From the NCBI GenBank assembly GCA_903876875.1, contig CAIRBT010000176.1:1-64000 (forward strand): a stretch of 64,000 nt of DNA. The letters are read 5' to 3'. A program made the translations under genes and the position numbers. Shown in pieces: positions 17,208 through 63,649 of this stretch; position 1 is the stretch's first letter, and the number at the start of each line of letters is the position of its first letter. Below the pieces are notes generated by a model. The model was given only the letters and a program-made list of their open reading frames with translations, ran no database searches and had not been told where the DNA came from. The stretch is from an uncultured Geobacteraceae bacterium. Its GTDB lineage: Bacteria; Desulfobacterota; Desulfuromonadia; Geobacterales; Pseudopelobacteraceae.

Positions 17208-17942
17208 TTAAAACTGATGAACCTGGGCAACGGTACCAACAATGACCCGGCTGCCAAGTTTATCGTGTCCCGGGTGCAACGATTTTTTAATGGTTATGAT
17301 AGAATTTCTGAATTCGATTGACTCTATCCACCCCTCACCAATGAAGCCCGGCGTTTGATCAAGCGGAAAAAAGCTCCGCAGATAGGTATTGATAGCAAGC
17401 TCTTTTTGCCAAAACTGGAAGTTAACGACATCAACCAGTTTTTTAAAAAAAGCATAGGCACTGAACTCATTAAGTATCCCCCCCCCGTAGGCACTCTCGT
17501 AGAGGGTATGGGTATCTTCGACAACATAAAGCCCCCCCGGCTTTACCAAGGGAAAATAGTTTACAAAAGAATTAAGGATGTCGGTCGAAACATGGGAACC
17601 GTCGTCGATCACAATATCAAATTCCGAAGAGAGGGAGCAGATCGACCGGTATGCCGGCAAACTGTTGGCATCACCAATGATGACATTGACACGAGGATCC
17701 GTGTACTGGAGGGCACCACAGGCCGGATTGATGTCACAACCGATAAATATCTTGCCGGCAGTGAAAAACCTGGTCCAGGTTTCCAGTGACCCACCATTCT
17801 GCACACCGATCTCAAGCATTGCAATCGGCGCATCCTGTAACGCTCCAAACAGAGAGTCATAATACCCCAGGTAGGAGTCCCACTTATCACTCACTTTACC
17901 AATTTTATTATGGTGCAGATCAGTAATTAATCGTCCGGCCAT
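17208..17942 (-). CDS. Class I SAM-dependent methyltransferase, CmcI-like
   Basis: About 244 residues. The SAM motif LEIGVQNGGSL, the acidic residues in IGCDINP, IGDAN and the IDDGSHVSTD segment are typical of CmcI-like/class I methyltransferases found in sugar and antibiotic clusters. After VKPGGLYVVEDTHT the C-terminal part is specific to this subgroup. I chose the ATG at 17940-17942 because AGGAG lies 5 bases upstream. In this context it may methylate a sugar on the exported protein, but no acceptor can be deduced. Confidence 0.78.
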   Translation of the reverse strand: MAGRLITDLHHNKIGKVSDKWDSYLGYYDSLFGALQDAPIAMLEIGVQNGGSLETWTRFFTAGKIFIGCDINPACGALQYTDPRVNVIIGDANSLPAYRSICSLSSEFDIVIDDGSHVSTDILNSFVNYFPLVKPGGLYVVEDTHTLYESAYGGGILNEFSAYAFFKKLVDVVNFQFWQKELAINTYLRSFFPLDQTPGFIGEGWIESIEFRNSIITIKKSLHPGHDKLGSRVIVGTVAQVHQF

Positions 17943-18003
17943 GTCAGCTCCTTTCAGACAGTACCCGGGCAGAGGCACAATTCACCCCGTCCGGTTACTC
18001 CTG

Positions 18004-21637: not shown

Positions 21638-21687
21638 AAGCGGCTCCCTTTCACGAACGAGTGTCATAAGCGACACGAAACTCAAAA

Positions 21688-30700: not shown

Positions 30701-33700
30701 TGCGGAATGGTCAGATTACTAATGGCAGCGGTTGACAGTCCCCGAATCTGGTTGGGTAACAGATTGCTCAGCGTGGTTGTACTTAACTGAGACACCTGAT
30801 CGGTCGTCAGGTAGCCGATTTCGCTCTGGAGCAACGCCTGGAGGTTTACGGTTGTAAGGGCGTCTATTTTTGAGACTGACAGTGCCTGAATCTGTGCACT
30901 GGTTAATACGGCCATCTGGCTTACGGAAAAATCGTTAAGGGTAACGCTATTCAAACCGTTGAGGGTTGCCGGAGCGATGGCACGCATATCGCCGTTGCTC
31001 AGTGTCTGCAGTGCAACCGAGCCAAGATTATTGAGCGTAGTGGCGGTAAGGCCAGCAATTTGAATAGTCGACAGCGGTGCCAGCAGCGCGGTAACGCTGA
31101 CCAACTGGGCGTTGGTGAGACTATGAACCGCCGAACTGGACAGATTGGACATCTGGGTGGTGGTCAGATTACTCAGGGTCGTCGTGGCCAGCAAAGAGAC
31201 CTGATCCGAGGTCAAGGCGGCAATTTCCGTGCCGGTAAACGACTGGAGGTTGATTGAGGTCAGGGCGTCAAGCTCCGAAGCCAGCAGTGCCTGCATCTGA
31301 GCCGTTGTCAAGCTACTCAGCTGACTGGTGGTAAACTGATTTAACTGGGCTGTCGCCAAATTGGAAATTGCTGAGACCGAAATCCCCATGACGTTGCTAT
31401 TACTAATCTGCGTTAACACCGTGGTGGTAAGTGAGTTCAGCGTATCGGCAGACAGTGCCTGAAACTGGGCGGCTGTCAAGTTGGATAATAGGGTAGTTCC
31501 CAGGGCACCAACCTGCAGATTGCTCAGACTCCCCACGGCGGAGCTCGACAGGTTATTCATCTGGGTGGTGGTCAGCATACTCAGGGTGGTGGTACCGAGT
31601 TGACTTACCTGATCACCGGAGAGAGCGGCAATTTCGTCCACGGATAGCTGCTGAAGCGTGGTGGTGAGCAGGGCATCAAGATCCGAAAAGGGCAGTGCCT
31701 GCATCTGCACCGAGGTCAGGTAGTTTAGCTGTGTCGCGGTAAAATTGTTCAGTGCCGCCGTGGTCAACGACGAGAGCTGAACGGCAGTCAGTGCCTGTAC
31801 TTCAGACTGAATGAGTGCGTGAACGCTTGTGGTAACCAGGGCGTTCAGATCGTCGGTGCTGATGGCCTGTATCTGAGCCGTCCCGAGGGAGGCCAACTGG
31901 CTGGTGGTCAGGTTATTAATCTGTGTCGTGGAGAAATTACCAATTTGGCCCACCGACAGGCTATCGATAACAGTAGTGCTCAAGGCCTGAAGAGTACCCG
32001 CAGTGAGGGCGTTCAGGTCGTCACTGCTCAGGGCTTGAAGCTGTGCCGTCGACATGGCGGCAAACTGGCTGGTGGTCAGGCCGTTGATCTGTACCGTGTT
32101 GAGACCCGCGATGGTTGACACGGTCAACGCCTGAATCTGGCTGCTGCTCAACTCACTGACAATGGTACTGTTGAGGGCACTTACCTGACTGGCCTTGAGT
32201 CCCCGTATCTCCGTCGAGGTCAGTGACTGGAGAGTCCCCTGAGTCATGCTGTTGAGTGCGGTGCTACTGATGGCCTGAATCTGGGTAACACTCAGGTTTG
32301 CCAGCTGGCTCCCCCCCATGTTATTGAGAACCTGAGTAGAGAAGTTACCTATCTGGTTCGCCGTCAACGACTGCACCTGAGCCGACGAGAGCCACTGCAT
32401 CGTCGTTGAGGTGAGTGCGTTCAGATCCTTGCTATTCAGCGACTGAATCTGGCTGGTGGTTAATTTGGCCACCTGCCCGGAGATCATATTATTGAGGACT
32501 GTAGTGGCAAGTGCCCCCACCTGTGCCGCTGTCAGTGCCTGAATCTGCACGGAGGTAAGAGCCTGCAGGTTACCCGTGGTCAGTGCATTGAGATCGGTAC
32601 TGGTGAGCTTTTTAATCTGGTCACTGCTCAGGGCTACAACCTGCTGGGTACTCATGCCATTTAAAGCCTGGGTGGCAAGAGATTGCAACTGACCGGTGGT
32701 CAGTGCCCGAATCACTGCCGTACTCAGAGCCTGCATACTGTTGGAAGAGAGGGCATTCAGGTTGGTACTGTTCAGGGACTGGATCTGTTCTGTGGTAATG
32801 AGAGCAACCTGATTGACACCCAGATTATTGAGAACGGAGGTTCCCATTGCTGCAAACTGTGTACCAGACAGGGCGAGTATGTCGGACGACGACAGATTCT
32901 GCAGACTGGTGGAGGAGAGTGCATTCAGACTGCTGCCGCTCAGTGCCTGAACCTGACCGGTTGTGAGAGCCACCATCTGGGTGGTGGTCAGACTGCTCAC
33001 CTGAGCGGTACCCAGATTATGCACGGCATCAGTTGTCAGTGCCTGTATCTGGCTGGTGCTCAACACACTGACCGCCACCGTACTCAGGGCGGTCAGCTGA
33101 CTGGCAGACAGGGCACGAATCGCCGCCGTACTCAGGGCCTGCAGGTTCAAAGAGGTCAGACCGTTCAGGTCGCTACTGGTGATCCCCTGAATCTGATCAC
33201 TGGTCAGCTTAGCGAGCTGCGTTACACTCATGTTGTTCAGAGCGGTAGTCGTCAGGGTGGAGAGCTGAAGCGTTGTTAAGGCACCGATCTGGGCTGAATC
33301 GAAGTACTGCAGACTCACCGAAGCAAGGTTGTTCAAGTCATCACTACTGAGCGCCTGCAGCTGATCGGTGGTCAACTTTGTCAACTGTGCCTGATTTAAC
33401 CGATTAATGGCGGTTGTGCTCAGAGCACCGATCTGGAGTGACGTCAGTGCCCGCACTTCAACGCTGGTCAGGGCATTCAGGTTTGTTGTCAGCAGCGCAT
33501 TGAGGGCATCACTCCCGAGGACGGTCACCTGGTCGGTGGTCAGATTGGCAATCTGAGCGGTCGTCATGGCATTGAGTATTGTTCCGGTCAAGTTGGACAG
33601 CTGAGTACTGGTCAGGGCACGAACCTCAACGGAAGTCAGAGCCTGCAACTGAACCGATGTCAGGGCATTCAGATCCGTACTGGTTAACAGCTGAATCTGC

Positions 33701-35643
33701 TCGGTCTTGAAAGCAACCAACTGGGTGCTGCTCAGGGTATTCAGCAGGGAGGTACTAAATCCGCTCAGCTGCACATCGGTCAGGGCACGGATATCGGCAC
33801 TGTTGATCGCCTGCAAATTCACCGAACTCAGGGCATTAATATTGTCACTACTGAGCGTCTGAATCTGGGCGGTGGTGAGGGCGGCGACCTGCCCGGCACT
33901 CAACGCATTCAGCTGACCCAATGAGAGTGCATTCACGGCATCGACGGAAAGGTATCCGACCTCGGCAGTGGCAAGCCTGCCAAGGGCGGTGGTGGTCAGG
34001 GCGGTTACCTGAGCGGTCGTCAGGGCACCGATTTCAACGGAAGTTAACGCCTGCAGGTTAGTTGAGTTAAGTCCGTTCAGGGCATCACTGTTAAGAGCCT
34101 GCACCTGATCGTTGGTCAGCCACCGCATCTGCTGGGTACCCAAGTTATTAAGAACCGTACTCCCCATGGCACCGACCTGATTCGCATCCGCCGTCAGTGC
34201 CGAGATTTCAGCAGAATTGAGGGCTCGCAGTGTTGTGGAGGTCAGGGCGTTGAGGGCATCACTACCGATGGCTTTGATCTGGGTATCCGGCGTCAACCAA
34301 CCGAGCTGGCGACTGGTCATATTATTGAGCACCGTGGTGTTCAATGCCCCCAACTGAAGTGCCGAAAGAGCCATAACTTCATCGGAGTTTAACGCATTCA
34401 GATTGTTTTGGGAGAGACTGTTCAGATTATCACTACCGATGGCCTTGATCTGATCCGTCGTTAACCAGCTGATCTGGCGTGTCGTAAGATTGCTTAATAC
34501 GGCAGTACCCAGTGCTGCTATCTGAGCCGTTGACAGGACGATTATTTCGGCCTGATTCAGTGCCTGCAGATTATTTGTCTGGAGTGCATTCAGCGCGTCA
34601 CTCCCTATGGCCTGCAGTTGATCATTCGTCAGCTTGGTCATCTGAACCGTACTCATGTTGCCCAGTGCCGAAGCGGTCAGATTGGATATCTGGGTGGCCG
34701 TCAATGCACGAAGGTCGTCGGACCCGAAGGCCTGCATGTTTACCGAACCAAGGGCATTCAGATCATCACTGGACAGGTAGTGCACCTGCGCCGTGGTCAA
34801 AGCGGCAATCTCATCGGTTCGCATAGACCCCAGCTGTTCACTGCTTAACCGTGCAATGACATCATTCTGAAGTGCCTTTATTTGGGCGGTGCTGAGGGTT
34901 GAGGTAAAGGTTGTGGCAAGGGCTGCCATCTCGGAAACAGAAATGGAAGCGATATCGGCAGTGGTAAATGCCTGTACATTAATGCTCCCCAAGGCGTTGA
35001 GGTTTTCCGAATTGAGGGCTTGAAACTGGGACGTCGTCATGGCCGCCAGCTGTGCGGTGGCCATCTTGGTCAACACAGCCGTGTCGAAATTATTTACCTG
35101 TATTGTTTTTAACGCCCGAATATCATCGGTACCAATGGCCTGAAGGTTGGAAGAACCGAGGGCGTTCAGATTATCGCTGCCGATGGCCTGAACCTGGGCT
35201 GTGTTGAGCGCCAGTATCTGAGCCGTCGTCATCGAACTCAGTACCGTTGTGGTAAAACCAGCAATCTGCGATGTTTTCAGAGCGGCAATATCTGCGGTCG
35301 TAATGGCTTGGAGGTTGGCCGTTACCAAGACATTCAGATCGTCAACATTGATGACCTTAATTTGGCTCGTGGTCAGGGCAGAAATCTGTGCCGAGCTGAG
35401 CAGGTTCAGTGCCGAGGTATTAAGATTGGCCACCTGAACAGTTGTCAGCACCTGAAGATGAGCAGAGTCGAGTACCTGCAACTGGGTCGAGTTGAGTACA
35501 TTCAGGCCGTCACTGGTTATGGCCTGAATCTGTGCCGTACTGAAAAGGACCAAATCATCCGTTGACATACCACTGATCTGCTGTGTACTCAGTTGCGCAA
35601 TCGAATCAGTAGCTAATCTATTGTAAAATGTACTCGTACTCAT
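21745..35643 (-). CDS. Giant octapeptide-repeat type I secreted protein (4632 aa)
   Basis: 4632 residues, start ATG with GGAGG 6 bases upstream. There is no N-terminal signal peptide and I saw no cysteine. Residues about 9-4350 are roughly 540 copies of an eight-residue unit, [S/T][S/T]x[Q/D/N][I/L/V]x[A/N][L/M/I], arranged mostly in sets of seven (56 residues). The set runs TTDQIQAI, GSDNLNAL, SSTNLQAL, TSAEIRAL, TTAQISNL, TTAVLNNM, TTRQLGWL. The C-terminal 280 residues hold a calcium-module found in RTX-like exoproteins, with EF-hand-like loops DLNADG, DVNNNGVID, DSNKDGVIN and DGNSDGVSQ. The tail, ending GPKDFLS, probably carries the type I secretion signal. Divergent HlyB/HlyD genes and flanking GT41 genes suggest an exported, glycosylated surface protein or adhesin. 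Function is inferred. Confidence 0.88.
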   Translation of the reverse strand: MSTSTFYNRLATDSIAQLSTQQISGMSTDDLVLFSTAQIQAITSDGLNVLNSTQLQVLDSAHLQVLTTVQVANLNTSALNLLSSAQISALTTSQIKVINVDDLNVLVTANLQAITTADIAALKTSQIAGFTTTVLSSMTTAQILALNTAQVQAIGSDNLNALGSSNLQAIGTDDIRALKTIQVNNFDTAVLTKMATAQLAAMTTSQFQALNSENLNALGSINVQAFTTADIASISVSEMAALATTFTSTLSTAQIKALQNDVIARLSSEQLGSMRTDEIAALTTAQVHYLSSDDLNALGSVNMQAFGSDDLRALTATQISNLTASALGNMSTVQMTKLTNDQLQAIGSDALNALQTNNLQALNQAEIIVLSTAQIAALGTAVLSNLTTRQISWLTTDQIKAIGSDNLNSLSQNNLNALNSDEVMALSALQLGALNTTVLNNMTSRQLGWLTPDTQIKAIGSDALNALTSTTLRALNSAEISALTADANQVGAMGSTVLNNLGTQQMRWLTNDQVQALNSDALNGLNSTNLQALTSVEIGALTTAQVTALTTTALGRLATAEVGYLSVDAVNALSLGQLNALSAGQVAALTTAQIQTLSSDNINALSSVNLQAINSADIRALTDVQLSGFSTSLLNTLSSTQLVAFKTEQIQLLTSTDLNALTSVQLQALTSVEVRALTSTQLSNLTGTILNAMTTAQIANLTTDQVTVLGSDALNALLTTNLNALTSVEVRALTSLQIGALSTTAINRLNQAQLTKLTTDQLQALSSDDLNNLASVSLQYFDSAQIGALTTLQLSTLTTTALNNMSVTQLAKLTSDQIQGITSSDLNGLTSLNLQALSTAAIRALSASQLTALSTVAVSVLSTSQIQALTTDAVHNLGTAQVSSLTTTQMVALTTGQVQALSGSSLNALSSTSLQNLSSSDILALSGTQFAAMGTSVLNNLGVNQVALITTEQIQSLNSTNLNALSSNSMQALSTAVIRALTTGQLQSLATQALNGMSTQQVVALSSDQIKKLTSTDLNALTTGNLQALTSVQIQALTAAQVGALATTVLNNMISGQVAKLTTSQIQSLNSKDLNALTSTTMQWLSSAQVQSLTANQIGNFSTQVLNNMGGSQLANLSVTQIQAISSTALNSMTQGTLQSLTSTEIRGLKASQVSALNSTIVSELSSSQIQALTVSTIAGLNTVQINGLTTSQFAAMSTAQLQALSSDDLNALTAGTLQALSTTVIDSLSVGQIGNFSTTQINNLTTSQLASLGTAQIQAISTDDLNALVTTSVHALIQSEVQALTAVQLSSLTTAALNNFTATQLNYLTSVQMQALPFSDLDALLTTTLQQLSVDEIAALSGDQVSQLGTTTLSMLTTTQMNNLSSSAVGSLSNLQVGALGTTLLSNLTAAQFQALSADTLNSLTTTVLTQISNSNVMGISVSAISNLATAQLNQFTTSQLSSLTTAQMQALLASELDALTSINLQSFTGTEIAALTSDQVSLLATTTLSNLTTTQMSNLSSSAVHSLTNAQLVSVTALLAPLSTIQIAGLTATTLNNLGSVALQTLSNGDMRAIAPATLNGLNSVTLNDFSVSQMAVLTSAQIQALSVSKIDALTTVNLQALLQSEIGYLTTDQVSQLSTTTLSNLLPNQIRGLSTAAISNLTIPQINNLGTSQMLGLTTAQLRALSSTEINSMSSTNLQVLTAGEVAALSTVVINNLTTSQLAQLTTFQLGWLSTAQVQALNGATLETLSSTSMQLLSASEIRAFTTSQVTTTVLSKLSTTQVQALPTATINALSTGQLAGLSTSQMVVLTTAQVQALSSNALNSLSTNSLRALTSSEVVALSTAQINALNSTALNNMTSAQLAAFTSAQAQALTTVDLQGITSTNLQALSSDNIVALTTDQLTALTATTLNKLSTTQLASLTTAEFQILNFSNLTGLNSINLQALTTADIATVSSDQVTSLTTAFISNLSTTQLVALTPAALNNLSTTQFTSMGTSLMAALTSDQAAALSVNELNAITSVNLQVMSSDAVTALSDVQLAAIGTNLLNRMSTAQMSLLTTVQVRALGSSVLNALSSTNLQALGSDDVQSLSTVQISGIVSATLNKLSTAQMSVLTASQVQALSSVHLNGLITGNLQALTTDTIAALTTAQLGSVSTNLLNNLSSAQVAALTSTEFKALSTDVLNALTSTTLQELATAAVATLTTAQISALFTTFTSALSSDQIKVLSTADIVSLSSEQATTLTTSQLAALTTAQARALSSDNLNALSSNSLRALSSDDVAALSAAQIAAFDPEVLNSLTVGQMAALGTTQIKAISTDNLNGLTSTNLQAFVSTEIGALSTLQLSSLSTTVLNGMTSSQLRWLRSDQIQALGSEALNALTSTSIQALNSVEIGALTTAQITALSADVLNRLTSDQAAALGSAQVRALNSEGLNGLNSSNLQAFDTIDIAALSTAQLSAVNSSFLNNLSTLQVAALSTTEFRALGTDNLNALNSTNVRAFTTAAVATLTSSQLSDLNTSFVAALATAQVKALSTSFIGSLNIEQMTALSSAQVAALTTAQTRVLATDNLNSLESLRMQAMTTDDIRALTSVQINSLTTAALNNLSTRQLSLLGTDQVRAISSDDLNVLNSVGLQALVSSEVMALSTLQLNNITTAILNNLTSRQVGWLTSSQLQAIGSDTLNGMTSLNLQTMTSTEIGFLSTTQVENLTTAILNNLTTRQIGWLNAAQIQAMGSSELNSIASLNLQAFTSAELAALTTAQISSLDTVALNNLSTRQLGWLRSDQIQALTSGELNGLTTANLQAFVSAEIMSLSTDQIAVLSTGLLNGLTTRQISWLTTDQVRALGSDSLNALSSINMRALNSSDIAALTTDQISNFNTTALNALSSRQISQLGSDQLRAIPTDSLNNLIDVNLQAIGTVNIQTLTTEQVNNFSTVLLNSLKTAQVAALTSVQIQAISSADLNALGSANFRALSTDQIAALTTAQISSFDTTVIDKLSSLQLASLTTAEFRALGTANLSAMSVSNVKSLSTAAIASLTATQLSALGTSFSSGLSTVQIGVLSTADMLNLTTDQVAALSIDQLGALSTAQVRALNTNAINALNSTKLQTLSSDDILALSTAQVKAFSTDVLNNLSSAQITILTSVQIPAISSADLNALTTVTMRLLSTGEIRALTTAQINQLSTAALNGMSTTQLASLSTVQVRALSATDLNALTSNNMRVLTTAETAALTTEQVAALTTSALYGMSTSQLSHLTTGQVQVIGSDSLNSLGSVNLQAFSTAEIAALTSGQVSGLYTTMVQALGTAQVAALSPANITLMAGAQINSWNTAQFSALTSAQTRALSSDNIIGLGSANMRALGTEDIRNLTTDVIAVFTTTALTNMSTTQLSALTTAQVKALTADHLMSLGSTNMQSLTTAEVATLTTDQISGVNSSTLSGLATSQIKALTTAVIDVLTTSQLNGLGTALLAQLSTVQIQAIGSEALNSLTPGNLQAFTPAEIAAFDNEQVTSLTTAALNGLTSIQLQSFTVNQMTQLTSAELNSLNSTNMPALTTVEIRALTTGQLSDLNSSALHNMSSRQVGALSATQVAVLSADALNGLVSTSLQAIGSTAIRALTTDQVSALNTTALNGMSTYQIAMLGTGQIQALAGDTLNGFDPSHLLALSSTEVAALTPLQITGLNTTTVSTLSNNQVRALTTLDINVFNSIQLNSLTVSQMAALSSGQVRALSSDGVNALTSTNMQAMTLAELKGLSTTQVSNFSTSVLNGMTTYQVASLNTALIPSLTSTNLNALTSTILRAVATAAVKALTTDQVNAFTTTAVSYLTSAQVKALTTAEITAMTAAQFNSMSAAVMGVLGTAQVRALTTDALNAISSTNIQALNSVDIRSLTTAQINALNTTGITNLSVAQLTSLTTAEIQALKAGSINALSLGQVLDSVTLQPLNTVNIQTLSTAQVAAFTTGQINGFSTTTISLLTNVQLKALTTAEINSLNTAQFGSLSSAQITLLSVGQIAALNAADLNSMSSANLNVLTTPSVRALTTAQVNALTSATLNQLTSVQVGMLTTSQIRSMNSTALNGLSTTNLTVLSTAAVRSLSTAQINALAVSQINQLLSSQVVSLTSIQIAALSTTALNTMSTVSLVLLTSAQVASLSTNQMGALTTSTLNSLTIGQMAALTTGQVRVLPASEFDALTTTNLRALSTADVRALTTAQINGLGTAVLNSMTSAQLGALTTAQVRAISTTDLNVLSTASLQAFNTADVRALSTSQINSLATTLFANMSTAQVSALTTDQVRNLTPAMLNALGTTNLVKLNTADIAALTTAQVVGLTTTSIVALSTAQVKAMTTTDIAAIHTAYQAQPPFTTAQIAAMTNDQITKLTTSPIVLNLDGLGIKTVAVSAGINYDLNADGTAENVGWLTSGSGFLVRDVNNNGVIDNGSELFGTSTVMPDGSIAPDGFAALAAVDSNKDGVINSADAAWNSLRVWVDGNSDGVSQPSELFTLSSLGVAEMGLNAVKTTIANNGNFILLDSTYKTTDGTVHDLADVYFGFSDPAGPQVLAPQLAAGLAQNDITTLAGAAKPVDVFNGTVPVPFNTSVIAPVVLDTTVLNGAPTEAAVLTGQQTVWKPAGTMMVYGDDHKSGVVVPQSTHVPTGPKDFLS
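22590..35620 (-). repeat. 24-bp coding repeat array with 168-bp higher-order period
   Basis: About 13 kb of imperfect 24-bp units encode the octapeptides of the giant protein. Phase is kept almost throughout, with a few 1-, 2- or -3-residue slips, such as the nine-residue TPDTQIKAI and ten-residue TADANQVGAM units. Synonymous codons vary widely between units, so the array is old rather than freshly amplified. Occasional extra octads shift the seven-unit register. Confidence 0.92.
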
Positions 35644-42160: not shown

Positions 42161-42293
42161 CAAAGGCGGGCACCCACATGGGGGTGCCCCTACGCAAAAC
42201 ACTCTTATTCTATAAACCGGAAAATTGGCTCTTTTCTAATGCCCGTTTTTCCTCCGCATCTCCGTATCTCCGCGTGAACAAACGCCGTTGGCT
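42161..42293 (+). repeat. Dispersed intergenic repeat with hairpin head
   Basis: A head with inverted arms GGGCACCC/GGGTGCCC (about 42169-42190) is followed by CTACGCAAAA, an AT-rich body and a tail with TCTCCGCGTGAACAAACGCCGTT. The same order is found inverted at 56.46-56.60 kb and in part at 36.06 kb. It fills most of the gap between the GT41 gene and mqnB, at the right edge of the accessory region. Confidence 0.75.
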
Positions 42294-45308: not shown

Positions 45309-45719
45309 ATGGAAAGCGTAAACTCAAAGGATCGCCACGGCCATACCCCACTCATAAGTGCTTCAAAGGAGGGGCTCAAGGATTTTGTTCAGGATCTGCT
45401 GCATCGTGGTGCTGATATCACGGCATGCAGCGACAAGGGCAAAACGGCTCTCCATTACGCCTCAGCCAACGGGCATACGGAGATCGCCCGGATGTTGATC
45501 GAAAAGGGGGCTGAAATTGATGCCCGTGACAGAGAAGGGCATACACCCCTCATGCTCGCGGCCATTTACGGCTGCAACCAGACGCTGCAGGCACTGCTTG
45601 GGGGGGGAGCCAATCCGCTGCTGAAAACTTCTGCCGGCACTACGGCGGAACTGTATGCTGAGAACAACAGCCACCCACTGGCGGCGGCACTCTTGAAAAA
45701 AGGGGCACGAACCACGTAG
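45309..45719 (+). CDS. Small ankyrin-repeat protein
   Basis: 136 residues made of about four ankyrin repeats (GHTPLISASKEG, GKTALHYASANGHTEIARMLIEKGAEIDARD, GHTPLMLAAIYGCNQTLQALLGGGANP). There is no signal peptide, so it is probably cytoplasmic. Ankyrin repeats bind proteins; the partner is unknown. GGAGG precedes the ATG. It stands alone between the divergent engB operon and the convergent panD, from which a long hairpin separates it. Confidence 0.85.
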   Translation: MESVNSKDRHGHTPLISASKEGLKDFVQDLLHRGADITACSDKGKTALHYASANGHTEIARMLIEKGAEIDARDREGHTPLMLAAIYGCNQTLQALLGGGANPLLKTSAGTTAELYAENNSHPLAAALLKKGARTT

Positions 45720-52983: not shown

Positions 52984-55900
52984 TTAACAGATGGTGGCAC
53001 CAACAACGTCTAACAATTCGGCCAGGTTTATTGGCTTCAACAGAACACGTGCAGTACCAAAATCCCCCTGACTATTAATAATTTCTTGCTGGTGTCCACT
53101 CATGAAAATGAACGGGACATTCGAGTGGATGCATATTTCGTCAAATAATGCCTTACCATTTTTGTTTGGCATAATAACATCGGTAATTATCGGGCTGATC
53201 TTCTCATCATATTCCATAAATTTCTTATAGGCATCCGCGCCATCCACCGCCAGTATCACGTGGTAACCAGCATCTGAGAGATATTCACTGATTACCTTCC
53301 CCAGCTTTTCGTTATCATCAACAACCAAGAGGGAACCGGCCTTTTTAATGACAGTATCGAGGCAGGTTATCGTCCCATCCGTTACGTCGGATGTCACCGC
53401 TGCTGATATAACAGGTAACTGCAGACGAAAGGTCGTGCCTTTTCCCAGCTCACTCTGTACCGTAATTGTACCACGATGCTGCGTAATGATTCCGAACACC
53501 ACAGGCATGCCGAGCCCCGTACCTTTGCCAACTTCCTTGGTGGTAAAAAATGGATCAAAGATCCGTTTTTGGGTAAATTCATCCATCCCCTCCCCGTCAT
53601 CAGTAACGGTGATCTGGGCATTTACCCCTTCTTCAGTACCGGGGCAGGAGAGCGTGCCCACTGTTATGTGCAGTCCGCCCCCGTTTGGCATTGCATCACG
53701 GGCATTGGTTGCCAGATTTATGAGCACCTGCTTGATCAACTGAGGATCGCACAGCACGAAGACAGGTTGCTCGGGAAGATCTTTGGAAACAATGATATCC
53801 TCACGGAGAACCTGTTCGATAAAAACACCTGCAGCTTTTACCAGCGCAACTAAATCATGACACCCCAGGTTCAGGTTCTGTTTACGGCTATAGGCCAACA
53901 TACCGTGGGTGATGGCACCGGCGTCATTTACCGCCGTCGCAATCTCTGTCAGGTATTGTTGCTGTTTTGGTTCCAGGCAACACGATTTTTTCAGCAGAAG
54001 GGTATATCCTCCGATGATACTCAGGATATTATTCAGTTCATGGGCCAACCCACCGGCCAATGCACCAATTGTTTCTGCTTTTTGTGCGTGTAACAACTGT
54101 TCCGCAAATACTCTTTTCTCGGTGATGTCCTCTTTAATAGAGACGTAATGGGAAATCACCCCCTGTGCATCATGGAGCGGTGCGATAATCGATTGCACCC
54201 AGTAGAGGCTGCCATCCTTACGCCTATTGTGCAGTTCACCTTTCCATGTATTGCCCCTACTGATTGTCTTCCAGAGAGACGTGTAGAATTCATCTGTCAT
54301 TTCACCAGACTTGATAAAACGGGGATTCTGCCCTATGGCTTCCGTTTCACTATAACCGGTAAGCGTGGTAAAACTTTCATTGACAAACTCAATTACTCCC
54401 TCCCTGTCAGTTATCAAGATAGGCGATGGACATTTTTCAACAGCATACGAAAGCTTTTTCAAACGACTTTCGTTGTAGTACTGGTTGGTGATATTCTTAT
54501 TTACCCCCCGATAGCCCTGAATCCTCCCTTCCTCATCTACAATCGGCACACCGTTTGAGGAAAACAAGATCGAAGTACCATCCTTGGCGAGAATCCACTG
54601 CTCCATATTTGAAAAGCGCCCCTTCTCGAGGCTTATTTTCCTGAATGCCTCGGCAACCCGTGCGGCCTCTGCGGGGTACATGAAGTCGTAGGGCGTTTTC
54701 CCTATGATCTCTTCCGGGCTATACCCAAGGTGTTCCACAACCTGGGGTGAGCAGTAAACAACACGTGCGTTGGCATCAATCTCCCACAGCCAATCTGACA
54801 TGGTATCAACAATGGCATACAGTAATTTATTGGATTTATCAGCTATCGAATTTGCATGCTGCAGGTCAAGCTCAATCTGTTTCCGACCAGAGATATCAAT
54901 ATGTACCCCTTGCATAATCAGTGGCTTGCCGTCATCAGTCCACCGGGTCACACTCCCCCAATCACTTACCCAAATCCAGGTGCCATCCTTATGTTTCATG
55001 CGGATATCGCAATGGTAGGGTTCGGAGGGTTCTTTGTAATGTTTTTCCAGCAACAAACTACTTTGTGCAAGGTCCTCCGGATGGGTAAACGAAACCCATG
55101 AATCAATAGAAATCGGCTCCAGCTCAGCATACGTATAGCCTATTATGTGAGCCCATCGTTCATTAATTGCAACGGTACCGGTCTGAACATTCCACTCCCA
55201 GGTCCCCGCATTTGTGCCATGGATTATGTTGGTTAAACGAGTTTCATTTGATAACACTGCTAATAATTGATTCTGGCGTTTGCGAGCGTACAGAGTAAGC
55301 AGGAGTGATGCAACAATCCCGGCAATGACGATTAGGTTGGTTAACCAGGTGGCAAAATAATAGGTAAAAGATGGCAGGGTTTTAAAAACGATGTAGCCGG
55401 TGATACCGTAAGAGCTAAAGGGCATTTTACTTGAATAATCGGGCAGATATCCTTTTGGCACGGTAGTACGTTCAGACTCAAAACTACTGAAGAGCAGATT
55501 ACTTTCCTCTACCCCCCCAATGTATATGTCAAAACCAACCTCCTTCGGCATAGTTCCGAAGGTACCATAGATATAATCCTTTATCCTGATGGGGCTGTAA
55601 ACAAAGCCCCGTATCGCTTTGCGACGCCCTTCAATCGTGTCAACCGCCACTCCTGGTTGATACACAGGAGCAAACATGATCAAGCCGATCTGTTTGTCCT
55701 GTTCGGTTTCCTGGAGTAAGGTTAATTTGCCCGTCAGCACCACGCTTCCACTGTCAAGAGCCCTGTCCATCGCCACCCGTCGTACCGGTTCTGTGTACAT
55801 GTCATAGCCGAAGGCTCGCTTGTTTCTCCAGTTGAATGGTTCAATTAAAGTGATGCCCGTATACCGGGGGCGCACACCACCAGGTTTGATGTCATACTCC

Positions 55901-56295
55901 GTGAGACCTTCCGCCCGCACAGCTGTAATGGTTGCCTCTTTTTCCAGTGGTGACAGCCAGGCACTGTAACCAATACCCAGAATACCGGGGCAGTTTTCAT
56001 CGAGTCGCAAGGAGTTGACATAATTTTTGAATTCAGCTCGTGAAACGGAGGGGCGAGCGTTACAGAACCCCTTAGCTCCAAGAAGTATCATTTCATGATC
56101 ATGCATTCGTTCATGAATATTTTCATAAATATCAGTGGTAATATTTTTATATCGACTTTCAGCCCGTTGCTTGAAGTTATAATTCAACAGCACCCCTATC
56201 GCTAGTGTGACAATGAGTGATGTACAGAGAACCGTGGTCGGTACCATTTTAGTAACAAGCAGAAATTCCGATTTTTTTATATCCATTAACGCCAT
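52984..56295 (-). CDS. CHASE-PAS hybrid histidine kinase
   Basis: 1103 residues. A membrane helix (about 17-38), a periplasmic CHASE domain (about 75-290) and a second helix (about 318-340) are followed by three PAS domains with PAC tails (about 350-735). Next come a HisKA domain with phospho-His in LAHELNNILS, an HATPase domain (DDGEGMD, GTGLGMPVV) and a C-terminal receiver with Asp in ITDVIMPN. CHASE domains bind small extracellular ligands; the ligand is unknown. A lone receiver gene follows directly. An ATG three codons downstream is an alternative start. Confidence 0.9.
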   Translation of the reverse strand: MALMDIKKSEFLLVTKMVPTTVLCTSLIVTLAIGVLLNYNFKQRAESRYKNITTDIYENIHERMHDHEMILLGAKGFCNARPSVSRAEFKNYVNSLRLDENCPGILGIGYSAWLSPLEKEATITAVRAEGLTEYDIKPGGVRPRYTGITLIEPFNWRNKRAFGYDMYTEPVRRVAMDRALDSGSVVLTGKLTLLQETEQDKQIGLIMFAPVYQPGVAVDTIEGRRKAIRGFVYSPIRIKDYIYGTFGTMPKEVGFDIYIGGVEESNLLFSSFESERTTVPKGYLPDYSSKMPFSSYGITGYIVFKTLPSFTYYFATWLTNLIVIAGIVASLLLTLYARKRQNQLLAVLSNETRLTNIIHGTNAGTWEWNVQTGTVAINERWAHIIGYTYAELEPISIDSWVSFTHPEDLAQSSLLLEKHYKEPSEPYHCDIRMKHKDGTWIWVSDWGSVTRWTDDGKPLIMQGVHIDISGRKQIELDLQHANSIADKSNKLLYAIVDTMSDWLWEIDANARVVYCSPQVVEHLGYSPEEIIGKTPYDFMYPAEAARVAEAFRKISLEKGRFSNMEQWILAKDGTSILFSSNGVPIVDEEGRIQGYRGVNKNITNQYYNESRLKKLSYAVEKCPSPILITDREGVIEFVNESFTTLTGYSETEAIGQNPRFIKSGEMTDEFYTSLWKTISRGNTWKGELHNRRKDGSLYWVQSIIAPLHDAQGVISHYVSIKEDITEKRVFAEQLLHAQKAETIGALAGGLAHELNNILSIIGGYTLLLKKSCCLEPKQQQYLTEIATAVNDAGAITHGMLAYSRKQNLNLGCHDLVALVKAAGVFIEQVLREDIIVSKDLPEQPVFVLCDPQLIKQVLINLATNARDAMPNGGGLHITVGTLSCPGTEEGVNAQITVTDDGEGMDEFTQKRIFDPFFTTKEVGKGTGLGMPVVFGIITQHRGTITVQSELGKGTTFRLQLPVISAAVTSDVTDGTITCLDTVIKKAGSLLVVDDNEKLGKVISEYLSDAGYHVILAVDGADAYKKFMEYDEKISPIITDVIMPNKNGKALFDEICIHSNVPFIFMSGHQQEIINSQGDFGTARVLLKPINLAELLDVVGATIC

Positions 56296-56685
56296 TCGTT
56301 GGCACCCTTTTATGACAGCAACTCAGGAGTCTGTTCGGACGGAGGAAATCGTCGCGAAAATCCGGCTGGGCAAGAGCAGATTTCTCCTAAGCCCGGCAGG
56401 CTCCTCGCCGCATGTACAATCAACATCAACACCGGGTATCCACATGGGGGCACCCCTACACAATCACTGTCAACGGCGGTTGACCACGCGGAGACGCAGC
56501 GGAAAACCCGGTAATCAGAAAAATTGCTGATTTTCTCGTTTTGTAGAATAAGAATGTTTTTGCGTAGGGGCACCCCCACGTGGGTGCCCGCCGTTGATTC
56601 TCGTACCCGGTAACATCTCATCGTCGCATCAAACCCCTCCAAACCTCCCCTTGACAGGGGGGATTGAGGGGGGGTGGTTTAAATA
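56296..56685. other. Intergenic region with an inverted-repeat element
   Basis: 390 bp without a convincing gene. It contains the 172-bp inverted-repeat element at 56426-56597 and, near 56645-56672, a CCTCCCC-TTGACA-GGGGGG stem that may end transcription of the upstream kinase gene. Confidence 0.7.
56426..56597. mobile_element. MITE-like element with 38-bp terminal inverted repeats
   Basis: Left end 56426-56463 and the reverse complement of 56560-56597 match at 30 of 38 positions by eye (both start TCAAC, share GGGG and CCCCTAC blocks and end CAA). The interior holds the CGGAGACGC tail motif and an AT-rich spacer, the same parts as the element at 42161-42293 in inverse order. There is no ORF, so it would be a non-autonomous element or a repetitive palindrome. 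Confidence 0.6.
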
Positions 56686-57642
56686 TTACAACCGACTCGT
56701 ATTGTAATCGTTCAGAGGTACAGAGAGGGAAAAGACACAGCCGGTTGCTGCATTTTGTACTGCAATAGCACCATTCATATTACGTTCGATGATCATCTTG
56801 GACATGTAGAGACCGATGCCGGTTCCCAGCTCTTTTGTGGTAAAGTAAGGTTCAAATACCCTGTCAATGATATCGTCAGCTATGCCACCGCCGTTATCCT
56901 GTACCGTTACAAAACCCCTGTTTCCGTCTTTCCCATAGGTAATGGTAATGAGCCCACCCGTGACACCCGAAGCAACGATAGCTTCTTTGGCATTGCCAAA
57001 AAGATTGAGTAACACCTGTGAAAATTCATTGGGAAAACCAAACATAGTACACTCTTCACCCGCTTCAACCACGATTCTGATACCATTGGTTCGATATGAA
57101 GCTTCAACTAATTCAATAGTCCGGGTGATTTTTTTCAGCGGTATAAAAGGTACTTTGAGCTTGTCCGGACTAAAAAAGTCTCGAAAGTCATCAATGGTGG
57201 TGGACATTTTTTGAATGAGCATATCGGCAGTAACAACTGATTTATCAAAGTACTCGTCGTTTAACGTCTTGTCTTTGTAACTCAGCTCAAGGTTACCGAG
57301 TAAGAGTGCTAATGCATTCAATGGTTGACGCCATTGATGGGCAATATTGTTAATCATTTCCCCCATGGCCGCCTGACGACTCTGACTGATGAGCGTCTGA
57401 TCTTTCTGCCTGATTTCAGTAAGTGCAGCCTCCAGATCCGATTGTATCCGGGCATTAAGCTTTTCCAATCGGAACCTGAAACGCTTCTCACCTTGATACT
57501 GCATAACTTCGAGTGATTTTTTTAAAAACTGGCGGGTAAAAATTCCGGTACTAAGCGCAAATAAGCAAAGTGCCAGAGCAATGCCATACAGTTCAAAACG
57601 CCACGGTTTCAGAATTTCGTCACGGGAGTAGCCCGCTATCAC
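56686..57642 (-). CDS. Histidine kinase C-terminal part (downstream of in-frame TAG)
   Basis: 318 residues from a GTG that is only the first possible start after an in-frame stop. It has one membrane helix (about 15-35), a coiled coil, HisKA with phospho-His in IAHQWRQPLNA, and an HATPase domain (DNGGGI, GTGIGLYMSK). Reading back across the TAG at 57685-57687 the frame stays open and matches the C-terminal end of a Cache-domain sensor (YARVTSYPLVVIAGYSRDEIL, in part). It is therefore the kinase half of a split gene. It could work if translated alone, but no good ribosome-binding site is seen. Confidence 0.8.
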   Translation of the reverse strand: MIAGYSRDEILKPWRFELYGIALALCLFALSTGIFTRQFLKKSLEVMQYQGEKRFRFRLEKLNARIQSDLEAALTEIRQKDQTLISQSRQAAMGEMINNIAHQWRQPLNALALLLGNLELSYKDKTLNDEYFDKSVVTADMLIQKMSTTIDDFRDFFSPDKLKVPFIPLKKITRTIELVEASYRTNGIRIVVEAGEECTMFGFPNEFSQVLLNLFGNAKEAIVASGVTGGLITITYGKDGNRGFVTVQDNGGGIADDIIDRVFEPYFTTKELGTGIGLYMSKMIIERNMNGAIAVQNAATGCVFSLSVPLNDYNTSRL

Positions 57643-57684
57643 AACAAGTGGATAGGAAGTGACGCGGGCATAGGAGCTTATTCT

Positions 57685-57687
57685 CTA
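57685..57687 (-). other. In-frame amber codon splitting a Cache sensor kinase
   Basis: TAG interrupts ...FSPADNT and RISSYARV..., two parts of one family-typical Cache-domain end. The frame is the same on both sides. One base change would restore a 602-residue kinase. Confidence 0.85.
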
Positions 57688-58494
57688 GGTATTATCTGCG
57701 GGAGAAAAAAGTGTGATCGTGCCGTATTCAGCCCCGCTTGCCATGGCTGAACGCAATTGCTTTGATATCTTGCCAAGCGTACCCACATCGGCATCACTTC
57801 CCGGGACTTCAGGAAAACGGGTCAAAAAAGTCATATCAGTATTTCTCAACACAATAGACCCGCCAGGTCCGGTCACCACACTGGAAATAACATTCCTGAG
57901 GCTTTCGAGCCGAATGGCCGCATAACTGATGCCGGCAAACGAACCATCCGGATTGTCCATACGACGTGCCAGGTAAATACCCCATTTACCGGAGCGCAAT
58001 CCTTTGAGGGGTTTTGAGACCACAAGACGGGGTGTGGGGTTGTTTTTCGCTTCTTGAAAAAACTCACGTTTTTCAATATTCAACGTTTCCTGGGGATTCA
58101 CCCCGTAGACAACGTTCCCGTCCCCATCTGCAATATGGACAAACTCAACGGGGGGCTCAATCAGGGCACTATGAAGATCCATATGTTGACGAATCGCAGC
58201 ATCAGACAATTTATCATGCTGTTTCAGATAGAGATACTCCCTGGCATTTGTGCGTATAGTTGCATCGGCTTTTTCCAGGTCTGACTTGATATGTTGCTGG
58301 AGAACAACAACAAGATTCCGCGAATTACTATGGGAGCGTTCCAGATAACCATTGCGGCTGTAAACGAGAAAAAAGACAGCAAAACAGGTGGAGAGAACAA
58401 TCGTTGCAATCCACACCGCAATGATTCGTCTTTCGATATATGATTTTTCAGGAGTGACATTGTGCTGTTCATCACCATTTAACGGTTCCTGCAT
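57685..58494 (-). CDS. Cache-domain sensor part of a split histidine kinase
   Basis: 269 residues. A cytosolic start, a membrane helix (about 26-46) and a periplasmic dCache domain (about 60-265) with FVHIADGDGNVVYG, REFFQEAK, SKPLKGLRSGKWGIYLARR (in part) and FAGISYAAI. Such domains sense small organic ligands. It stops at an in-frame TAG just before the end of the Cache domain, while the kinase continues in the same frame. The ATG has AGAGGTG upstream. As it stands the product would be an anchored sensor with no output. Confidence 0.8.
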   Translation of the reverse strand: MQEPLNGDEQHNVTPEKSYIERRIIAVWIATIVLSTCFAVFFLVYSRNGYLERSHSNSRNLVVVLQQHIKSDLEKADATIRTNAREYLYLKQHDKLSDAAIRQHMDLHSALIEPPVEFVHIADGDGNVVYGVNPQETLNIEKREFFQEAKNNPTPRLVVSKPLKGLRSGKWGIYLARRMDNPDGSFAGISYAAIRLESLRNVISSVVTGPGGSIVLRNTDMTFLTRFPEVPGSDADVGTLGKISKQLRSAMASGAEYGTITLFSPADNT

Positions 58495-58573
58495 GAATCA
58501 CCTCTGGTGAGCAGCGTTCAGGCGCTACGTCACAATCATCTGACATTCACCGACCTGCGCACCAGGCAGTAGG

Positions 58574-61500
58574 TCAAGCGGTTGCTGCCAGCCATTTCGT
58601 AAGCATTTCTGAAAGTTTACTTTTGTTAACCGGCTTCGAAAGATAGTCATCCATCCCCGCTTTCAGGCATTCTTCGCGGTCTTCTGACATGGCGTTTGCC
58701 GTCATTGCGATAATGGGAACCTTATGATTAAGCACGCAAGATTGGGGATCACGGATGGCAATTGTAGCCATAAAACCGTTCATTTCCGGCATTTGGCAGT
58801 CCATGAGGACCATATCGTACTCGATCTTTTCTAACGCACGGAGGGCTTCAATACCGTTTGCCACAACATCGGCATTATACCCCAGGCTGCTGATCATTTT
58901 ATGAGCGACCTTCTGATTAATGAGATTATCCTCGGCAAGTAATATCTTCCACGTTTGTGCTGAAACCGGGGCACTTTCCCCAGATTCGGCCTGCCCAGCC
59001 GGTATGGCATCTTGTCGACCGAGTGCCCGGCTGAGACACTCATGCAGTTGATCCTGCTTGAGTGGTTTCGTCGTAGTGGCAACAAAACCGGCTTGTTCGA
59101 TACGTTGAGTATCAAGGCGTCTGCCAAGCGTTGTTAACAGTACCATGGCGGTTAAAGCAAGGTGAGGATCGGCTTTAATTTGTCTGCCCAGCTCAACGCC
59201 ATCACATCCCGGCAGCTGGTGATCAATAAGCACCATGCTAAATGGCGTCCCCGAGCGTGCTGCCTCGTGGAGCATCTGCAGCCCCATCTCTGCTGAGGAA
59301 CTGGCTTGGCACAGGCAGCCCCATCCCTCCAGCAGTTTCGTCAACTGTACTCGACTGGTATAATTGTCATCAACTATCAACACAGAGGTGGTGCAGAAAC
59401 CACTGGCATGTGGTTCACCTGTCTCAGCCACAACCTGTGCCGAAAGGTCAAAACAGACGGTAAACCAGAAAGTAGAGCCACTACCATATTCACTGGTTAC
59501 CCCTATTTCACCCCCCATCAATTCAGCTAACTGACGACAGATTGTCAAGCCAAGACCGGTACCACCGTATTTTCGTGTTGTAGAGCTCTCTGCCTGAGTA
59601 AATGGTGTGAAGATATCATCCAGGCGATCTTCCGGAATACCAATACCGGTATCACTCACCTCGAAGAGCACAGTTACTGACTCATTAGTAAGGGTATTTA
59701 GGGTGGCACGCAGGACAATCTCCCCTGCCTGGGTGAACTTAATGGCATTGCCGGCCAGATTGGTAATGATCTGCCGTACCCTGCCCGAATCCCCCGTAAG
59801 GTTTTTGGGAATAGCGGGGTCAACGGTGCAGATCAGCTCCAGCTGCTTCTCCACGGCACGGAGAGCCAACAGTTCAGCCGTATCCTCCATTGTCGTTAAC
59901 AGGTCAAAAGCAATTATTTCCAAAGAGAGCTTTCCCGCTTCTATCTTGGAAAAATCAAGAATTTCATTAAGTATTTCCAGCAGATTTTCACCACTTTTGC
60001 GGACGATCTCGGCATAATCACGTTGTTCAACGGTCAAGCCGCTTTCGAGGAGAATGTCGGCCATACCTATCACCCCGTTCATCGGGGTGCGAATTTCGTG
60101 ACTCATGGTCGAAAGGAAGTTGCTTTTTGCCTTAGTAGCCAATTCGGCACGTTCTCGTGCAAGATTCAGTTCATCAATCAACATTTTCTTTTCAGTGACA
60201 TCAACACAGACGGCAACATAATGGGTTATCAGACCGGCACTATTACGCAGAGGTGTGATGGTCGCCAATTCCCAGTATAAGCTTCCATCTTTGCGCCGGT
60301 TAACCATCTCGCCATGCCAGAAGCCCCCGGCTCCAAGTGTCGTCCATAATTCAGTAAATATTTCCGGTGGTGTCAACCCCGACTGCAAGATCCGTGGGTT
60401 TTGTCCCACCAGCTCTTCAGGAGTATAGCCGGTGATCTCGGTGAATTTTGGATTAACAAATTCTATAATTCCCCAGGGATCCGTCATAATAATCGATACG
60501 GGACTCTGTTCCACGATACGGGAGAGTTTCCGCAGTTCATCCTCATACTCCCTAAGCTTGGTGATATCGGTGTCAACACCCCGGTAACCGGTCAGAATGC
60601 CAGCTGCGTCAAAGATCGGTACTCCATTAGTTTTAAGAAGAATTGGCTGACCATCCTTGTGTCTATTCCAATTTTCAAGGTTGATAATACGCTCCTGATT
60701 CTGCACAATCCCGACAAACAGCGACCCAATCCGCACAGCCTCTTCGGGGGGCATAAAATCCAAGGGGGTTTTGCCGATAATTTCTTCCGACGTGTAGCCG
60801 AGATGTTTTACCGCTCGATCCGAACAGAAGGTATATCGCCACTGACTATCGACCTCCCAGACCCAGTCGGACATGGTTTCAACAATGGCATTCAGGGTGT
60901 CGTTGGAATGCTTGACAACCAGGTTGGCTTGTACCAGGGCCATTTCAGCCAATTTACGTTCGGTAATATTTTCATGGGAGATAACTGCCAATTTTTGGCT
61001 GTCAATGGTGAATTGATTGATATGACAAATAAACCAGCGATCCTCAGTGGCAGAATGGCAGGGGTACTCTTTCGTAAACGTCTGGAGTTCACCGGCGAGG
61101 ACATCCTGCAGACCGGAGTGGAACTCATTGAGGTCAGAGCTGTTTTCCGGATTACCTCTGTCTATATCGCATGCATGCAGATAATTAATCCCTTTACCGA
61201 TACTTTCAGGCGTTGCACCATTGAGTGCGGCAAAAAGATCCCAGGCCAGATTGGTGAAAATGATATCCCCGGCAACATCAACTACGCATATATGAGCACT
61301 CAGACCGTTAAGGGCCGAACGATTAAATAGCTCTAACTCACGGATCGTCTGTTCGGCTCTGCGTCGCTCGGTTATATCGGAGAAAGTAACAACGGCACCG
61401 GTGGTTGAGTCGTTTTCAATGATGGGGTGGGATGAGTATTCGGTGAGGAAGGAGGTACCATCGCTCCGCCAAAAAACTTCCGTGTCAACGCGACAACCGA

Positions 61501-63328
61501 TGGCACTATTTTTAGCATGGTAAATAGGACAGTCCTCTACAGGGTACGTCGTACCATCAAGACGACTGTGGTGTACAAGTGTATGCATGTCATAACCAAG
61601 GCAATCAGCCAGGTTATGGCCCAAAAGCCTCAAACCGGCTCTGTTTATAAAGGTACATGCGCCTGACGCATCTATGCCGTAAATACCTTGATCTGTTGTC
61701 TCAAGAAGTTGTTTTGTCACCTTTTGAGCGGAATCTGCTGCCTGAACCGCAGCGGACAATTGATACTCAAGGTTTTTTCTATCGGTAATGTTGTAAGTAA
61801 AACCGTGCCAGAGAGTGCTGCCGTCCTCCGTCCTTTGCGGCAGAGCACTCCCATAGTGCCACTGCAGCCCCTTTTGTGGCAGAATGACCCGATATTCGTA
61901 TTCCCATGGTGAGAGGGTCAGTGCCGAACCCTTGAAAGAGAGCCGGATCCCTTCGGCATCATCGGGATGAAAGAGGGAAAAGACAGCGGTGGCATTTTCG
62001 CCAATGTCCTCAGGAGCCAGCTCAAAAATATCCCGTATGCCATAACTAACAAAGGGAAAACTATGGAGACCTTCCGGCGATATGCGATACTGGAAGATCA
62101 TTCCCGGCACCTGGCTCGAAAGGTCATGAAGCAACTTATGGCTTTTCTGTAATTTATCCTCCAGGGCTTTCCGGGTGGTTATATCGGAAAAGCTCCAGAT
62201 ACTTCCCGCAGTTGGGTCATTAGGATTAACTGCTGAGCCAGTAAGACTGATAATCAAAACCGTATCGTTCTTGCACTGTAACCTCAGTTCGTTCACAAAC
62301 GGCTCACCGGTTGTTAACAGCGGGTACACCGTTATCCCAAATTGTTCAAACTCTTCTGCGGTAGGATAAAGTATCCTGGTACTGGCTCCTATCACTTCGT
62401 TTTCATTGTAGCCAAACATTACGTTAAATGCCGAATTAGCCCATTTAATCCGCCGGTTTTGCACAAAGATCATTCCATTACCGGCATTTTCAAGAATTAT
62501 CCGTTGTTCCTCTGATCTCCGCTGCCGTTCCTGCTCCAAGCGTTTTATACGTGTAATGTCAACCAAAGTCACCAAACTGGTGCCGTCCCCCTGATCGGTA
62601 GCGGCTATTAACGCGAAAATTTCGCTGCCATTTTTACCAATTACCCTATACTCTCTCTCAATCACTGAACTTTCATTTGCACGGGCAGTTGAGACGTCTT
62701 CGCTCCAGATATTTTGAACCCAACGACGATATTCATCATCGGGATAGGCCTTTTCCATCCAGACATCAACGGTAGGTATATCCGCAAGAACATAACCAAA
62801 CGTTTTTTCAAAGTTTGCATTAACGTAAAGAATCGTGCCATCTGCCGAGTTCAGCGCACATGATACCGGCAAACTGTCCATCATTATACGGAACTTTCGT
62901 TCACTTTCGGCTAATTGGCGTTCCGTTCGCAGGCGGCGGGCACAATCAAGCAGACTCTTGGTAAACTGCCTCAGATTAATCGGCTTGGTTATATACCGCT
63001 CTATGCCCAACTCAATGGATTGTTTCAAATAACTTACCTGGTCGAAGGCTGTTAATACAATGATCGCGACAGTGTGGTCATGCTCCCGAATGTGGGCGAC
63101 CATTTCCAGACCATCCATAATGGGCATACGTATATCGGTGACAATAATATCGGGATGATGGTTCTGATAGGCAGCGAGTCCCTCCTCGCCATTTTTAGCC
63201 GTTATCAAACGGCCGCAGTAGCGTGCCAACAGCTCGCTCCCCTGCTCTAAGATAAAGTCCTCATCTTCCACATAGAGAACGGTCAGTCCCTTCAAAAAGT
63301 CTCTATCCGCACTATCACGATGTATCAT
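58574..63328 (-). CDS. Large multi-PAS hybrid histidine kinase with three receivers
   Basis: About 1584 residues, no membrane helix, so cytosolic. The order is receiver (about 10-125, Asp in IVTDIRMP), about seven PAS/PAC domains (about 145-1040), HisKA with phospho-His in MSHEIRTPMNG, HATPase (DTGIGIPED, GTGLGLTICR), then two receivers (Asp in VLIDHQLP and in VLMDCQMP). It has no histidine-phosphotransfer domain, so a separate one is needed. I chose the ATG at 63326-63328, which has GGAGG 6 bases upstream; the ATG seven codons earlier has none. Several PAS domains closely resemble those of the 52.98-56.3 kb kinase, suggesting duplication. A 21-base G tract lies about 100 bp upstream. Confidence 0.9.
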   Translation of the reverse strand: MIHRDSADRDFLKGLTVLYVEDEDFILEQGSELLARYCGRLITAKNGEEGLAAYQNHHPDIIVTDIRMPIMDGLEMVAHIREHDHTVAIIVLTAFDQVSYLKQSIELGIERYITKPINLRQFTKSLLDCARRLRTERQLAESERKFRIMMDSLPVSCALNSADGTILYVNANFEKTFGYVLADIPTVDVWMEKAYPDDEYRRWVQNIWSEDVSTARANESSVIEREYRVIGKNGSEIFALIAATDQGDGTSLVTLVDITRIKRLEQERQRRSEEQRIILENAGNGMIFVQNRRIKWANSAFNVMFGYNENEVIGASTRILYPTAEEFEQFGITVYPLLTTGEPFVNELRLQCKNDTVLIISLTGSAVNPNDPTAGSIWSFSDITTRKALEDKLQKSHKLLHDLSSQVPGMIFQYRISPEGLHSFPFVSYGIRDIFELAPEDIGENATAVFSLFHPDDAEGIRLSFKGSALTLSPWEYEYRVILPQKGLQWHYGSALPQRTEDGSTLWHGFTYNITDRKNLEYQLSAAVQAADSAQKVTKQLLETTDQGIYGIDASGACTFINRAGLRLLGHNLADCLGYDMHTLVHHSRLDGTTYPVEDCPIYHAKNSAIGCRVDTEVFWRSDGTSFLTEYSSHPIIENDSTTGAVVTFSDITERRRAEQTIRELELFNRSALNGLSAHICVVDVAGDIIFTNLAWDLFAALNGATPESIGKGINYLHACDIDRGNPENSSDLNEFHSGLQDVLAGELQTFTKEYPCHSATEDRWFICHINQFTIDSQKLAVISHENITERKLAEMALVQANLVVKHSNDTLNAIVETMSDWVWEVDSQWRYTFCSDRAVKHLGYTSEEIIGKTPLDFMPPEEAVRIGSLFVGIVQNQERIINLENWNRHKDGQPILLKTNGVPIFDAAGILTGYRGVDTDITKLREYEDELRKLSRIVEQSPVSIIMTDPWGIIEFVNPKFTEITGYTPEELVGQNPRILQSGLTPPEIFTELWTTLGAGGFWHGEMVNRRKDGSLYWELATITPLRNSAGLITHYVAVCVDVTEKKMLIDELNLARERAELATKAKSNFLSTMSHEIRTPMNGVIGMADILLESGLTVEQRDYAEIVRKSGENLLEILNEILDFSKIEAGKLSLEIIAFDLLTTMEDTAELLALRAVEKQLELICTVDPAIPKNLTGDSGRVRQIITNLAGNAIKFTQAGEIVLRATLNTLTNESVTVLFEVSDTGIGIPEDRLDDIFTPFTQAESSTTRKYGGTGLGLTICRQLAELMGGEIGVTSEYGSGSTFWFTVCFDLSAQVVAETGEPHASGFCTTSVLIVDDNYTSRVQLTKLLEGWGCLCQASSSAEMGLQMLHEAARSGTPFSMVLIDHQLPGCDGVELGRQIKADPHLALTAMVLLTTLGRRLDTQRIEQAGFVATTTKPLKQDQLHECLSRALGRQDAIPAGQAESGESAPVSAQTWKILLAEDNLINQKVAHKMISSLGYNADVVANGIEALRALEKIEYDMVLMDCQMPEMNGFMATIAIRDPQSCVLNHKVPIIAMTANAMSEDREECLKAGMDDYLSKPVNKSKLSEMLTKWLAATA

Positions 63329-63649
63329 TACAATCCTCCAAAGACACAAATGTGCCTCTGACTACTGGGCAAAAAATGACTCACAAGAGCGCAGAAATGC
63401 CCTTCTCGCTGCGGAAACTCGCTACCGGGGGGGGGGGGGGGGGGGGGTAAAATGTCTTTTTGCTCTTAAGTACCATTTTAAGGCGCACAGCAAGTATTTT
63501 GAGAGCATGGTTTCTCCTGCAGATAGGTGCCACAGACTCTTCAGTTTGACTTTTATTCGTGAGAGGTAGTAAATTAGCGGCATTGAATCATAGGCATTCA
63601 TCTGAATTAGTCAAGTTTTTTTTCATTTCTGGTCTCACCAAGCAACCAC
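63329..63649. other. Intergenic region with a poly-G tract
   Basis: About 320 bp with no gene. It contains a run of 21 G (63427-63447) and otherwise AT-rich sequence near 63.5-63.63 kb. I see no clear promoter, though transcription of the hybrid kinase must start in or near it. Confidence 0.7.
63427..63447. repeat. Homopolymer of 21 G
   Basis: An uninterrupted run of 21 guanines on the plus strand, about 100 bp upstream of the hybrid-kinase start. Such tracts can change length by slippage, or may reflect a sequencing or assembly problem. Confidence 0.9.

Follow-up and report, generated by a model that had tools for sequence, protein, structure and literature searches.

The minus strand of the window (the whole 64,000-nucleotide stretch analysed here) carries a dCache histidine kinase gene at 58494-56686, which comprises 602 codons and is interrupted by one in-frame TAG at codon 270. 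The window lies in contig C176 (65,081 bases) of a 3.93 Mb draft genome with 191 contigs and an estimated completeness of 95.84%. The kinase gene is part of a sensor array, in which it stands between two hybrid kinases. The features of the array, which is compared below to that of the closest relative (G034, an uncultured Geobacteraceae MAG), are the following:

58574..63349, minus strand: upstream neighbour, a hybrid kinase with PAS, HisKA, HATPase_c and three receiver domains; intact, with the same order in G034
57685..58494, minus strand: 5' part of the kinase gene, with an N-terminal membrane helix and most of the dCache sensor; 269 aa, ends at the TAG
57685..57687, minus strand: the in-frame TAG (codon 270), Trp in the three nearest relatives
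56686..57684, minus strand: 3' part in the same frame, with the Cache end, the second membrane helix, HisKA and HATPase_c
52984..56295, minus strand: downstream neighbour, a CHASE-PAS hybrid kinase with a receiver domain; intact here

The 269-aa ORF (57685-58494) indeed closes with the TAG, as the initial annotation had stated for its Cache sensor. Past this codon the frame is open from 57684 down to a TAA at 56686, a stretch of 332 codons. With the TAG translated as X, a single 602-residue protein (P0001) is obtained without any frameshift, again as initially claimed, and this protein was the basis of the domain search. Pfam matches were found to dCache_1 (residues 88-214), dCache_1_like (199-288), HisKA (377-442) and HATPase_c (489-595). 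The dCache_1_like and HATPase_c matches lie above the curated cut-offs and those to dCache_1 and HisKA below, HisKA falling just short (24.9 vs 26.9 bits). Two strong hydrophobic stretches are present, at residues 24-42 and 302-320. The core motifs of the kinase, known as H, N, G1, F and G2, all lie downstream of the TAG. The read-through frame therefore holds a periplasmic dCache domain between two membrane helices, followed by a HisKA domain with its phospho-acceptor His and by HATPase_c. The helix at 302-320 and the domain matches bear out the earlier proposal that the frame runs on into the end of the Cache domain, a membrane helix and a kinase, and they place the TAG near the end of the periplasmic domain, ahead of the second helix. 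In its domain order, its two helices and its kinase motifs the read-through frame resembles the dCache-type membrane histidine kinases (dCache_1 / dCache_1_like + HisKA + HATPase_c). It differs from them in that the frame is not continuous, the TAG at codon 270 interrupting the Cache domain.

Several other features were seen in and around the array. The intergenic stretch just 3' of the kinase gene (window 56380-56640) consists of interspersed palindromic repeats of the GGGGCACCCCC...GGGTGCCC type, with 37 further matches in the same genome, one of them in the window at 42161-42290. Upstream of the hybrid kinase lies a fragment with a partial match to DUF4372 (L161:761-1006; G000:C176, about 63760-64005), a domain that is presumably the N-terminus of some transposases. 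It is followed by an ArsR-type regulator and a low-molecular-weight phosphatase-like protein. Elsewhere in the window, a 4,632-aa protein (21745-35643, minus strand) with 85 matched ALTTAQ repeats adjoins a TPR/glycosyltransferase family 41 protein (18884-21685) and a possible methyltransferase (17208-17978).

The conserved frame beyond the TAG is not a product of chance. It aligns over the stop with relatives at 85%, 51% and 47% identity, and its 332 codons form the longest post-stop extension among the 40 window ORFs of at least 100 aa that were left after overlap thinning, some of which may not be genes (the next longest: 201). Another gene of the window had also been considered as TAG-split (TAG 45717-45719). 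There the frame beyond gave no family match, and the TAG was accepted as the natural stop of an ankyrin protein.

All 39 genomes of the genus (own included) contain a match to P0001, mostly to the kinase half. Among the matches listed, the closest outside the own genome is found in G034 (85% identity), and no other near-full-length match among them exceeds 50% identity. The own genome holds no intact full-length paralogue among the matches listed, the others covering the kinase half only. No same-species strains were found among the records covered, which may leave out this genome or one very near it. The TAG column was surveyed in 21 rows (loci numbered up to L115), which were merged, several being duplicates, to 11 distinct places, the own gene included. 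The comparison with relatives gives a sense codon at each of the 10 other places: the column is Trp in the nearest three (the G034 orthologue, a G034 paralogue and a G029 relative), while the seven more distant places carry Glu (two), Leu, Val, Gln, Pro and Ser (one each). The disabling change is thus absent from the relatives. No description of this gene was found in the literature searched, which is not to claim that none is in print.

The comparison of the gene to its G034 orthologue yields a dN of 0.084 and a dS of 0.535 (ratio 0.156). The ratio is 0.169 for codons 1-269 and 0.146 for codons 271-602, so purifying selection has acted on both sides of the TAG. When the changes are assigned to branches, using only the columns where two outgroup copies agree, 4 fall on the own branch and 7 on the G034 branch before the stop (116 columns), and 4 on each branch after it (174 columns). 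No excess of changes on the own branch is seen before or after the TAG, and constraint after it shows no relaxation, as expected if the loss is recent. Together with the Trp in the relatives, these observations leave three options for the stop: it is of recent origin, it is not real, or it is read through. In a simple neutral simulation, which assumes an equal split of dS between the branches and one half transitions, about 13 stops are expected if the whole branch was unconstrained and 7 if half of it was. The simulated probability of at most one stop is 0.062 with 0.3 of the branch unconstrained and 0.007 with 0.5. One stop or none would hence be expected only if the unconstrained period covered under about one third of the branch, i.e. 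the gene fell out of use late, provided that the stop is real. At synonymous sites the broken kinase has diverged less (dS 0.54) than the neighbouring hybrid kinase (0.92; window 56686-63349 vs L037), perhaps as a result of recombination. The alignment of the hybrid kinase to L037 contains a few small frame-breaking gaps.

The G034 orthologue (L037:7596-9402; G034:C31) is itself disrupted: one base has been inserted near codon 105, within a run of G. It has a sense codon at the TAG site, and its lesion is thus a different one. At the place of the downstream neighbour, G034 retains only a 347-base remnant of the 5' end of this CHASE hybrid kinase. As G034 is a draft MAG, the frameshift of the orthologue could also be an error; if G034 comes from a stratified-lake data set, as is plausible, it was assembled with Megahit from Illumina reads. 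The sensor array is losing genes in both lineages, by different routes. Such losses from one array speak more for ordinary gene decay than for a conserved recoding device.

The probable explanation is therefore that a dCache histidine kinase gene, formerly intact, has recently acquired a nonsense mutation, present as a fixed or frequent allele in the assembled population, though perhaps not fixed. The different lesion of the G034 orthologue and the remnant of the next gene speak for this reading, as both point to gene loss within the same array. Translation would halt at codon 270, and the predicted product is a membrane-anchored sensor fragment that lacks the Cache end, the second helix and the kinase. 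Signalling by this sensor would be lost, and the 3' part, although it looks intact, probably undergoes little translation, if any. Prokaryotic pseudogenes that are young and have few disablements are described as recent losses in PMC522871. As in those cases, the gene here is otherwise well preserved, carries one disablement and has intact relatives elsewhere. However, the pipeline of that paper required more than one disablement, so that a gene with one lesion would not have been counted.

The main rival is a sequencing or assembly error: the consensus base would be wrong and the gene intact in the organism. This is considerably less probable than a nonsense allele, yet a single lesion in a gene under purifying selection over its whole length is equally expected from a consensus error in a working gene, and the assembly is a draft of many contigs. 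Short-read consensus sequences rarely carry a false substitution, and one would seldom arise here, if this genome was assembled from short reads. Moreover, the nearest orthologue is broken as well, at another place, which is a better fit to real decay.

The two nearest known orthologues are switched off by different single-base lesions and keep the mark of purifying selection. It is conceivable from this, if improbable, that the sensor is kept in lake populations as an on/off polymorphism, or that low-level reading through the TAG doses the kinase.

Read-through proper is doubtful. In it an amino acid would be inserted at the TAG to give the full-length kinase, either all the time through a suppressor tRNA or at a low level through near-cognate tRNAs. 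The conserved frame would fit, and so would the base after the TAG, which is A and not U; a U at +4 is reported to reduce read-through (PMC5289835). With this A some leak is possible, with no sign of a programmed event. RNA folding downstream of the TAG is unremarkable (z -1.73 and -0.75), so no clear structure follows the stop, nor does a stop recur at this column in the 10 other distinct places. RF1 is present in the own genome (550 bits vs a cut-off of 423), and of the 40 window ORFs counted (100 aa or longer) 8 end in TAG, the kinase 5' ORF included. The search for a suppressor tRNA, suggested at the outset, came back empty: all 36 tRNA matches were read and none has a CUA anticodon. That set is incomplete, however, as tRNA-Trp and others are absent from the 36 matches in the own draft genome. 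Nor was nusG found in it, a gene that is often close to tRNA-Trp in such genomes, and a suppressor may thus sit in a missing contig.

Genes that encode pyrrolysine by UAG share with the kinase gene an in-frame TAG and a conserved continuation; the typical case is a methylamine methyltransferase. The gene here differs in its product, in the Trp of its relatives and in the lack of PylS. Matches to the PylS C-terminal part in the 39 genomes are all weak, the cut-off being exceeded in none (own included), and the N-terminal search gave no match in the own genome. Likewise, 12 of the 13 control genomes have C-terminal matches that are weak and below the cut-off. Neither PylS nor a CUA tRNA was detected in the genome, which in an incomplete draft is not proof of absence.

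Equally doubtful is a working split, in which the sensor fragment and a membrane kinase started past the TAG function as two polypeptides: both halves are intact and translation from a GTG at 57642 (the first in-frame start listed downstream) would yield 318 aa that comprise the kinase and one membrane helix, but this GTG has no Shine-Dalgarno-like sequence, the best matches to AGGAGG ahead of the first three in-frame starts (1/6, 2/6 and 3/6) make none of them a convincing internal start, the TAG falls inside the Cache domain instead of at a domain border, and no split point is shared with G034, whose copy is broken elsewhere.

The initial annotation had left three readings side by side: a recent nonsense mutation, a sequencing error and a read-through site. 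The first is now the best supported, by the Trp in relatives, the purifying selection and the lack of acceleration on the branch, while the last has gained no positive support. The stop in this lake bacterium most likely reflects ordinary gene decay and not a special decoding trick. The two ORFs should be annotated as one interrupted gene, instead of being listed as a short Cache protein and an independent kinase, and the finding has little import beyond annotation. Should both alleles turn up in reads, the gene would offer a modest natural example of a sensor being lost in an uncultured Geobacteraceae lineage.
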